Shown: one piece after another, positions 37,457-40,460 of the stretch
How the letters are laid out: the number at the start of each line of letters is the position of its first letter
Position numbering within the stretch: position 1 is the stretch's first letter
NCBI GenBank assembly: GCA_022821145.1
Contig: JAJEEE010000037.1
Coordinates: 62,001 to 126,000 of the forward strand
Length of the DNA: 64,000 bases
Source of the DNA: Acidobacteriota bacterium
Lineage (GTDB): Bacteria; Acidobacteriota; Terriglobia; 20CM-2-55-15
Direction: 5' to 3'
The notes under the pieces: model-generated
The model's input: only the letters and a program-made list of their open reading frames with translations
Databases searched by the model: none
What the model was told of the DNA's origin: nothing
Program-made: the position numbers and the translations under genes

Positions 37457-37666
37457 ATGGCAGACTCAACCGAGGCTCTGATTTTCGACAACGGCCCCAT
37501 CAAGGTCAGCGGCGAGTTCGTCCTGAAGGACGGCCAGGGACGGGCGTTCGACCTGTCCGGGCGCGACGCGGTGGCGCTGTGCCGGTGCGGTCATTCCGGG
37601 AACAAGCCGTTCTGCGACGGAAGCCACAAGGCTCAGGGCTTCCAATCGGTGACCCAGGCCCGCTAA
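37457..37666 (+). CDS. CDGSH iron-sulfur domain protein
   Basis: 69 aa. CRCGHSGNKPFCDGSHKAQGF at 42-62 gives the CXC-x9-C-D-G-S-H ligands (three Cys, one His) of a [2Fe-2S] CDGSH cluster. A beta strand region IKVSGEFVLKDGQGRAF precedes it. The ATG at 37457 has AAGGGA upstream. It is convergent with the rhodanese gene across a terminator-like hairpin. Redox or cluster-transfer function is likely. Confidence 0.93.
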   Translation: MADSTEALIFDNGPIKVSGEFVLKDGQGRAFDLSGRDAVALCRCGHSGNKPFCDGSHKAQGFQSVTQAR

Positions 37667-37726: not shown

Positions 37727-38152
37727 TTATTCCGGCCGAATCGGCCCCGGCGCCGGCCGGTCGACGCGGTCGACCACGTTGAGGCCGGCCGCCTTCCAGT
37801 CGTTGATGCCGCAGAATTCACCGGCCATGTAGCCGGCGTCGAGGAACATTTGAGCGGCGCGCGACGCGCGCCCACCGCCCTGTCAGTAGAAGACGAGCAG
37901 TACGTCTCGCGGGATATCGGGCATCCGCGCTTCCAGCTCGCCCATCGGAATGTGGATCGCTCCGTCGATGGCGCCGTTCTCGTCGAGTTCCCAGTCTTCG
38001 CGGACATCGATCAGAAGAAACTCGGCGCCGCTCTGCAGGCGTTCCGCCAGCGTCGGGATCGCGATGCGTTCGGTCTCGTCCTGCGGGGCCGCGGCGACGC
38101 CGGCCGCCCCCGCCCATGCGCCCGCCAGAACGCCGATCAGAATCTTTTTCAC
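37727..38152 (-). CDS. Exported rhodanese-like protein with in-frame TGA at the catalytic Cys (candidate selenoprotein)
   Basis: Read through one TGA (37885-37883), this is 141 aa: signal peptide (about 1-22), then a rhodanese fold with LLIDVREDWELDENGAIDGAIHIP, VLLVFY, the TGA codon at residue 90, QGGGRASRAAQMFLDAGYM and GINDWKAAGLNVV, ending at TAA 37727. Rhodaneses have CxxGxRS here; the TGA replaces exactly that Cys. Without readthrough the protein ends just before its active site. The GTG at 38152 has GGAGG eight bases before it. Alternative: a Cys-to-stop mutation (TGC or TGT to TGA) in a young pseudogene. Confidence 0.75.
37856..37872 (-). promoter_or_regulatory. SECIS-like hairpin after the rhodanese TGA
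   Basis: On the minus strand GGCGCGCGTCGCGCGCC folds into a perfect seven-pair stem with loop GUC. It starts 10 bases after the TGA, and the loop begins after 17 bases. The minimal fdhF SECIS of E. coli is also a 17-nt stem-loop, about 11 bases after UGA, with GUC in its loop. High GC content makes chance hairpins easier, so the call depends on the protein context. Confidence 0.6.
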
Positions 38153-38238
38153 GTACCCTACCTCCAGGCAACGTCTCACGCCCGGAACGTTATCACGACC
38201 GGGACCGCCCGAACAGGACTAACGGCCCGCCCCGGCCC

Positions 38239-40290
38239 TCACGCCCGTTTCGGAGACACGCCGTCCATAGCGGAGGAGACACTGTCCAGAACGACGCGGA
38301 CGGACGGCAGGAAGTGCGCGCGCCGGCGCTCGAGCGCCAGGATGCGCTTGGCCTTCTCGGGACGTTGGGCGAGTTCCGGTTCCGGCACCGCGGCAAAGCC
38401 GCGGCGGCCCGAGGCGGCCGTCACGACCTGGAACTCCCCTTTCTTGAGCCCCAGGTAGACCCAGTCTCCGGTTCGCACGGCCGCGATGGCCCCACCGGCG
38501 ATCGCCTCGGGAACGACATGGGCGATGGACAAGCCGTTCCCGCCGAAGACCACGCGCCCGTCGGTCGCGATCACGCACCCGTGGGCCAATCCCGCGTCCC
38601 GGCCCGGGATCTCGATTTCGGGCATGCCCGACGCGCGCGGACCCTCCCCTCCGACGAACACGATCACGCGCAGCAGACCGCCCTCCACCAGGTAGTCCCA
38701 CAGCCGCTGCCGGGTCCAGGCGGGCGATGGATCCCCGGAACGGTCCGTCGCGCCCTCTGGCCCCCAGTTCAATAGCCACGTCCGGTAGAGATCGTCCCGG
38801 GTGACTTTCTTCCGTAACCGATCGAGCACGCCCCCGGGTCCGGCCTGAGCCTCCACGAAAGCCTCGCGTCCCAGAAAGAACTCGGCCAGGTACACCTTCT
38901 GATCGTAGGGCGATGGATCGCCCCCGTTCCGCGCCAGAGCACCCGCGCACAGGTTGCCTCGGAGACCGGACAGTCCCGAGCTCGGGAGCGTGGGCGTCAT
39001 CGTCGAGTGGAAATAACGGCCGTTCGCGGAGCGCGCGTCCGTGATCCGGTGCATCCACGGCCCATCGAGAGTCACGGCGCGATCGTCGATGAGGCGTTTT
39101 TCCGACAATGTTCGCATCAACGTGTCCACGCCCGAGTTGCCGCCGCCGTCGGTTTCCGCGGCGAGACCCGGCGCGGCCCCCCCGTCTTCGAGATCGAACG
39201 AGAGCAGCCGCGGGACCTTCGACATCTTGCGGCCCAGCATGGCCGGACTCAGCCGCACGCCCATGGCTTGCGCGAGGTAGTGGATGTGGAGTTGCCATGA
39301 CGGAGATCCGCCGGTGGCGCTCCAGACCGTCACCGCGTTCTGCATGTTCATCCGCACCAGGTGGGAGACGCTGATCCGGCGCTCGCGCCGGTGTATGCCT
39401 TGAACCAGCCGCCCCACGGCCCGGGCCAGGGCCGCGTCGCCGGGAGGATGGAGCGAAAGGTCCAAGCCGCGCGGGACCAGGCCGAACGCCGCGACGATCA
39501 GCCGGTTGACGAGGGCGGCTTCCCAGGAGCCGGGGTTGGCCCCGTGCGAAGCCGCCCGCCGGGCCACGACGCCTTCGAGCACGTCCTTCTCCGACTCCAG
39601 GATCATTCGTTTCTGGAACGCCCGGTCCAGACAGTCCTTGATCTTCTCGTACGCGGCCGGCGAAATCGGGAGCTCGATCAAGCCGAACAGCGTCTCCGCC
39701 TCCGACGGGGTCAGCTTCTCCCGAATCAACGCGAACGGGCGGCGCTCCTGTTCCGTCAGACGGACCACGGGCCCGACGCTGACGGGTATGAACGACGCGT
39801 ACAGCGGCCGGACTTTCCGGCGCTGCCGCGCCAGGTCAGCCTCGACCAACGCGCGGAGACACCCCACGAACATCTTGTCGCAGGCCCCGAGGACGAAAGC
39901 GGCGTCGTAACCGTGCGCCTCCATCAGCGCGGCGACGTTCGATGCGCAGACGTTGCGTCCCAGAAACGCGTAATGCGACCCGAGCAGCCCGTGAGACAGC
40001 TCCTCGCAGGGGATGGCGTGGGACACCCCGATCGGAAGCGCGTCGTCGGCCCAGAGCCGGCGGATCACACGGCGCGCCAGCTCCCGGGAGCCGAGGCTGG
40101 GAGGATGGTCCTCGGAACCGTGGATCACGGCGACGCGAGGTTCCCCGGCCATGAAACGTTCGAGTATCGCCTCCCGGTCGGGCCGGATGCCCGCGAATCG
40201 CAGCGATTCCTCGATGACCGGATCCAGGATCGTGTACGGCCGAGCCTGGCTGATCAGGGGATCCCTGAACCGGCGCGAGTGCATCTTCAT
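38239..40290 (-). CDS. Divergent IlvD/Edd dehydratase superfamily protein
   Basis: 683 aa, longer than the usual 560-620. Similarity to dihydroxy-acid/6-phosphogluconate dehydratases is clear in the middle (AFVLGACDKMFVGCL for GCDKxxPG) and C-terminal domain (SGLRGNLCAGAL, DGRVVFGGNGLSIAHVVPEA). Key residues are missing: the first cluster cysteine (HGSEDHPPS), the third (no CGGM-TANTM segment) and the base serine (DGRFSGG becomes DGRVVFGG). A normal [2Fe-2S] dehydratase is therefore unlikely. ATG at 40290 chosen; upstream in-frame codons look non-conserved. Function unknown. Confidence 0.72.
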   Translation of the reverse strand: MKMHSRRFRDPLISQARPYTILDPVIEESLRFAGIRPDREAILERFMAGEPRVAVIHGSEDHPPSLGSRELARRVIRRLWADDALPIGVSHAIPCEELSHGLLGSHYAFLGRNVCASNVAALMEAHGYDAAFVLGACDKMFVGCLRALVEADLARQRRKVRPLYASFIPVSVGPVVRLTEQERRPFALIREKLTPSEAETLFGLIELPISPAAYEKIKDCLDRAFQKRMILESEKDVLEGVVARRAASHGANPGSWEAALVNRLIVAAFGLVPRGLDLSLHPPGDAALARAVGRLVQGIHRRERRISVSHLVRMNMQNAVTVWSATGGSPSWQLHIHYLAQAMGVRLSPAMLGRKMSKVPRLLSFDLEDGGAAPGLAAETDGGGNSGVDTLMRTLSEKRLIDDRAVTLDGPWMHRITDARSANGRYFHSTMTPTLPSSGLSGLRGNLCAGALARNGGDPSPYDQKVYLAEFFLGREAFVEAQAGPGGVLDRLRKKVTRDDLYRTWLLNWGPEGATDRSGDPSPAWTRQRLWDYLVEGGLLRVIVFVGGEGPRASGMPEIEIPGRDAGLAHGCVIATDGRVVFGGNGLSIAHVVPEAIAGGAIAAVRTGDWVYLGLKKGEFQVVTAASGRRGFAAVPEPELAQRPEKAKRILALERRRAHFLPSVRVVLDSVSSAMDGVSPKRA

Positions 40291-40460
40291 AGCCGAAAAT
40301 CGACACGGGCCGAATACTCCTTGTCGGCCCGCGTATCCTCCGTTCGATTTCGGATCGCTGACCGGCGGAATATACACCAGGCGGCCGCGCCCTGACAACC
40401 GCACTCCAATGTAAGTTACTTGTTTACATTCACTTAGATGGAGTCAAATATTCCTTGAAA

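Follow-up and report, generated by a model that had tools for sequence, protein, structure and literature searches.

The window, by which we mean the whole 64,000-nucleotide stretch analysed here, carries on its minus strand a rhodanese gene (38152..37727) that starts with GTG at 38152, ends with TAA at 37729..37727 and is predicted to encode a protein of 141 amino acids with selenocysteine (Sec) at residue 90, referred to below as Sec-rhodanese. These exact coordinates were confirmed on reading the sequence, in which a Shine-Dalgarno-like GGAGG (38161..38165, minus strand) is also directly visible 8 nt ahead of the start codon. The sequence pattern at the N-terminus is that of a probable signal peptide, MKKILIGVLAGAWAGAAGVAAA (38087..38152, minus strand), and judging from this hydrophobic segment the product is probably exported. 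Several orthologs of Sec-rhodanese also have hydrophobic N-termini, and others begin straight at the domain. The frame contains one in-frame TGA only, at codon 90 (37885..37883), within the motif LLVFY-U-QGGGRAS. The initial annotation had placed this sole internal stop exactly at the codon of the catalytic cysteine and had described 51 open codons beyond it that complete the rhodanese fold. Both descriptions were borne out, the 141-residue frame running on to the TAA with the tail GINDWKAAGLNVV.

The adjacent genes are a convergent CDGSH iron-sulfur protein gene (37457-37666, plus strand) and, upstream on the same strand, a gene for an IlvD/EDD-family dehydratase (38239-40404, minus strand); neither has an obvious link to the rhodanese. 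Inspection by eye of the ORFs surrounding 12 related loci showed neither a shared operon nor a conserved gene neighbourhood, and the context is therefore uninformative about the substrate.

Sec-rhodanese scores 48.2 bits against the Pfam rhodanese domain PF00581 (cut-off 22.2), and the best Foldseek matches of its AlphaFold model (mean pLDDT 72, built from a four-row alignment) are solved rhodanese domains. In sequence alignment, U90 coincides with the catalytic cysteine of solved rhodaneses. The columns G93, R95, A96, R98, A99, A100, C114, G115, D118, and W119, all encoded 3' of the TGA, are invariant, and the catalytic loop together with the residues following the TGA ranks among the most conserved columns.

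Two cues used in the initial annotation, an open frame past the TGA and a local fold, are each weak as evidence alone. In the window, which has 67.5% GC, 119 of 256 long TGA-ended frames continue for 51 or more codons beyond the TGA before the next stop, and we dropped the long open frame as evidence on this count. The single-sequence folding energy was dropped likewise, since the local fold at the hairpin, at z = −1.0, is ordinary for a sequence of this composition. When the window sequence is folded to minimum energy, a slightly different hairpin register is favoured. The exact geometry of the 7-bp stem follows only 3 of 1,307 TGA trinucleotides. The case for a selenoprotein therefore rests on comparison.

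The genome assembly holding the window (4.18 Mb, 99% complete) contains all four selenocysteine genes named in the initial annotation: selA (440 bits), selB (380 bits, over the cut-off), selC (75 bits), whose tRNA-Sec has a UCA anticodon, and selD (360 bits). At least 2 further genes of the assembly have a TGA within LUHGPT. One, whose in-frame TGA falls within ARLUHGPT, encodes a formate dehydrogenase-N alpha-like protein (L105, G000:C67:3745-4521), which is likely to be a second selenoprotein of the genome. The other, whose in-frame TGA falls within SLUHGPT, encodes FwdB, formylmethanofuran dehydrogenase subunit B (L111, G000:C83:6464-6862; 361 bits, cut-off 328), likely to be a third selenoprotein and one found here in a bacterium. 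Because the sel genes and other TGA/LUHGPT genes are present, this cell very probably makes general use of selenocysteine. Co-occurrence with selB was dropped as evidence for the rhodanese itself, since selB is over the cut-off in 79 of 101 relatives overall and in 20 of 22 TGA genomes and does not discriminate.

To compare the catalytic codon, we searched 101 relatives, then widened the search to 396 genomes of the phylum, and placed 48 rhodanese sequences in a tree. The codon corresponding to Sec90 (37883..37885, minus strand) is TGA in 33 of these 48, and 15 were counted as Cys, a class that includes L084, a CxU-type protein, and some sequences brought in with a stop codon that lies away from the catalytic site. 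The TGA orthologs come from many genera and families and from independent assemblies, and their alignment reaches the end of the domain. One close ortholog, L031, has TGC and is nested among TGA orthologs inside a starred clade (97/91), so that the predicted alternation of TGA and TGC over a conserved downstream frame was indeed found. Between two genomes of the same genus, the part after the TGA evolves as coding sequence, unlike the sequence past the TAA, with a dN of 0.027 and a dS of 0.15 that derive from only 8 substitutions. A 92%-identical copy is present on another contig.

These comparisons bear on two readings in which no selenocysteine is made. According to the first, a cysteine codon (TGC or TGT) has mutated to TGA or been misread as such, leaving a dead or mis-assembled gene. 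TGA and TGC are one base apart, L031 does have TGC, and the draft genome is in 89 contigs. Against this, TGA recurs in the 33 sequences across independent assemblies and many families of the phylum, and both the frame and the hairpin past the TGA are conserved. Pseudogene and sequencing error were rejected on the conservation of the TGA and are extremely improbable. According to the second, TGA is a true stop that yields a functional truncated product of 89 residues, and the similarity beyond it is merely residual. That a product ends at the stop is a formal possibility in any such case, and SelB-dependent decoding of UGA competes with termination. However, the residues after the TGA hold the catalytic loop, in some of the best conserved columns, and the Cys ortholog continues to the same C-terminus; we give this explanation hardly any credence. 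Overall, the comparison supports the view that selection maintains UGA in this rhodanese as a codon that is translated.

Downstream of the TGA lies a candidate SECIS hairpin, GGCGCGC-GUC-GCGCGCC (37856..37872, minus strand). As initially described, it is a perfect 7-bp stem that begins 10 nt after the TGA and presents its GUC loop 17 nt after it. Bacterial SECIS elements are expected to have a loop of 3-9 nt, a stem of 4-16 bp, a distance of 16-37 nt from the UGA and an energy of −7.5 kcal/mol or lower, with a G in the first two loop positions in the pattern G[G|U] (PMC13188914). The window hairpin lies within this published model, with 7 bp, loop GUC, 17 nt and −12.9 kcal/mol. A scan of the window against Rfam at gathering thresholds gave no match. 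In all 17 TGA orthologs of the close clade, 7 of 7 stem pairs are kept (16 distinct sequences in the formal count). Their hairpins lie 17 nt from the UGA, with energies of −9.3 to −12.9 kcal/mol, and their loops (GUC, GGA, or GGC) all begin with GU or GG. In the Cys ortholog L031, 3 of 7 pairs are left and no hairpin conforms to the model.

Synonymous codon choice shows the same constraint on the hairpin. Codons +4 to +7 use the same synonym wherever the residue is shared (observed 1.00, expected 0.31-0.36). Synonymous conservation over the hairpin codons as a whole is 0.80 against 0.33 expected (Mann-Whitney p = 0.0008), and codons elsewhere in the gene reach 0.53 against 0.44 expected. Within the close clade the stem shows little variation, all of it G-C/G-U changes on one side, and so offers no informative covariation. 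A sister clade of Sec-rhodaneses (L040-L046, L071, L072, L076, and L079; motif TAU-NGGGRAARAA and similar) has its hairpin 21 nt after the UGA, 4 nt farther from the codon than in the close clade, and its loop is CGUGC throughout. There, 3 pairs show compensatory changes on both sides, and the covariation score was reached by 0 of 500 shuffles and 0 of 6 slides. In a simple bulge-free search, a strong model hairpin was missing in the Sec members L048, L051, L069, and L070, and marginally in L044. A lipobox-like AAAGCQ is seen at the N-terminus of six sister-clade proteins of family f7 (L040-L043, L045, and L046).

Given that codon and hairpin alike are conserved in relatives throughout the phylum, we consider that the window almost certainly holds a genuine selenoprotein gene with selenocysteine at residue 90. 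SelB with Sec-tRNA(Sec) would bind the hairpin that starts 10 nt past the UGA, and the ribosome would then place selenocysteine at residue 90 rather than terminating, so completing the rhodanese fold.

The predicted active site suggests a chemistry for the protein. The loop U-Q-G-G-G-R has 6 residues and a conserved Arg; an anion-binding loop of 6 residues is typical of sulfurtransferases and not of Cdc25-like phosphatases. Sec90 would be the nucleophile in this loop and would most likely accept sulfane sulfur, forming a selenopersulfide. A second cysteine follows 24 residues after Sec, C114 in the motif FCGI (37811..37813, minus strand), and is a candidate resolving residue. Among Sec members 32 of 33 have it, among Cys members 3 of 15, and most Cys-type relatives have GG at this site. 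Fisher's test gives p = 8e-8 for the enrichment, a value that is overstated and only indicative because the sequences are related. This distribution suggests that Sec90 and Cys114 form a redox or persulfide-resolving pair, in which Cys114 would probably resolve or reduce the Sec intermediate via a selenenylsulfide. On balance, we lean towards sulfur transfer as the main activity. The same second cysteine could instead mark a protein of rhodanese fold that acts mainly, through a Sec90-Cys114 selenenylsulfide, as a Sec/Cys selenol-thiol oxidoreductase or as a reductase of peroxides or persulfides. Such a role agrees with the homology of most Sec families to thiol oxidoreductases (PMC2398784); the loop, in contrast, has the length found in sulfurtransferases and a conserved Arg. 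We regard an oxidoreductase as the less probable of the two activities, and as one to be taken seriously.

Reports of selenocysteine-containing rhodanese-related sulfurtransferases go back to 2005 and include the Sargasso Sea and GOS surveys (PMC1088965, PMC2398784), and the catalogued rhodanese-like selenoproteins comprise five forms, two of which (forms 2 and 4) have a UxxG motif (PMC13188914). Rhodanese-type selenoproteins are thus a kind already known, and the gene described here adds a member. Sec-rhodanese has in common with forms 2 and 4 the rhodanese domain (PF00581), the Sec, a SECIS just past the UGA and the UxxG motif, here U-Q-G-G. The catalogue lists these two forms by accession (MBM9537886.1, MCY3690685.1) and motif, and the acidobacterial clade, whose signature is VFYU-xGGGRA and FCG(I/L), may belong to one of them. 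The rhodanese-related (seleno)protein family NF041203 (form 3, LYCAU) likewise combines a rhodanese domain with Sec, but there Sec follows Cys in a CxU motif, whereas in Sec-rhodanese it replaces the catalytic Cys and no Cys stands two residues before U; the score of 31.3 bits is below the cut-off of 115. TsoB (NF045694, form 5), also with a Sec rhodanese domain, is a large rhodanese/DsbD fusion with two Sec, in contrast to the 141 residues and single Sec seen here (24.7 bits, cut-off 805). E. coli PspE and GlpE (weak scores of 24 and 17 bits) are also small single-domain rhodaneses but have Cys in place of Sec. Another rhodanese met in the phylum, L084 (G313:C64:70944-71255), reads Y-C-T-TGA (YCTU, CxU type) and resembles the catalogued form 3; its hairpin has a CGUGU loop 21 nt after the UGA.

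A full-text literature search combining selenocysteine, rhodanese, and Acidobacteria, of incomplete coverage, returned no paper describing the clade. A more far-reaching proposal would make it an uncatalogued Acidobacteriota Sec-rhodanese subfamily acting as a selenol/persulfide oxidoreductase through a selenenylsulfide of Sec90 with resolving Cys114, in two sister clades whose SECIS elements lie 4 nt apart relative to the same motif. We advance it tentatively and regard it, as a whole, as rather unlikely.

Since such genes are cut short or lost when annotation treats every TGA as a stop, selenium-dependent sulfur chemistry in the Acidobacteriota is likely under-counted. The phylum-wide set offers a natural experiment, in which Sec/Cys exchange is accompanied by hairpin decay and sister clades use two hairpin registers. 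The Sec/Cys pair, for its part, provides a testable mechanism for a family whose selenoproteins have come to light largely by prediction.
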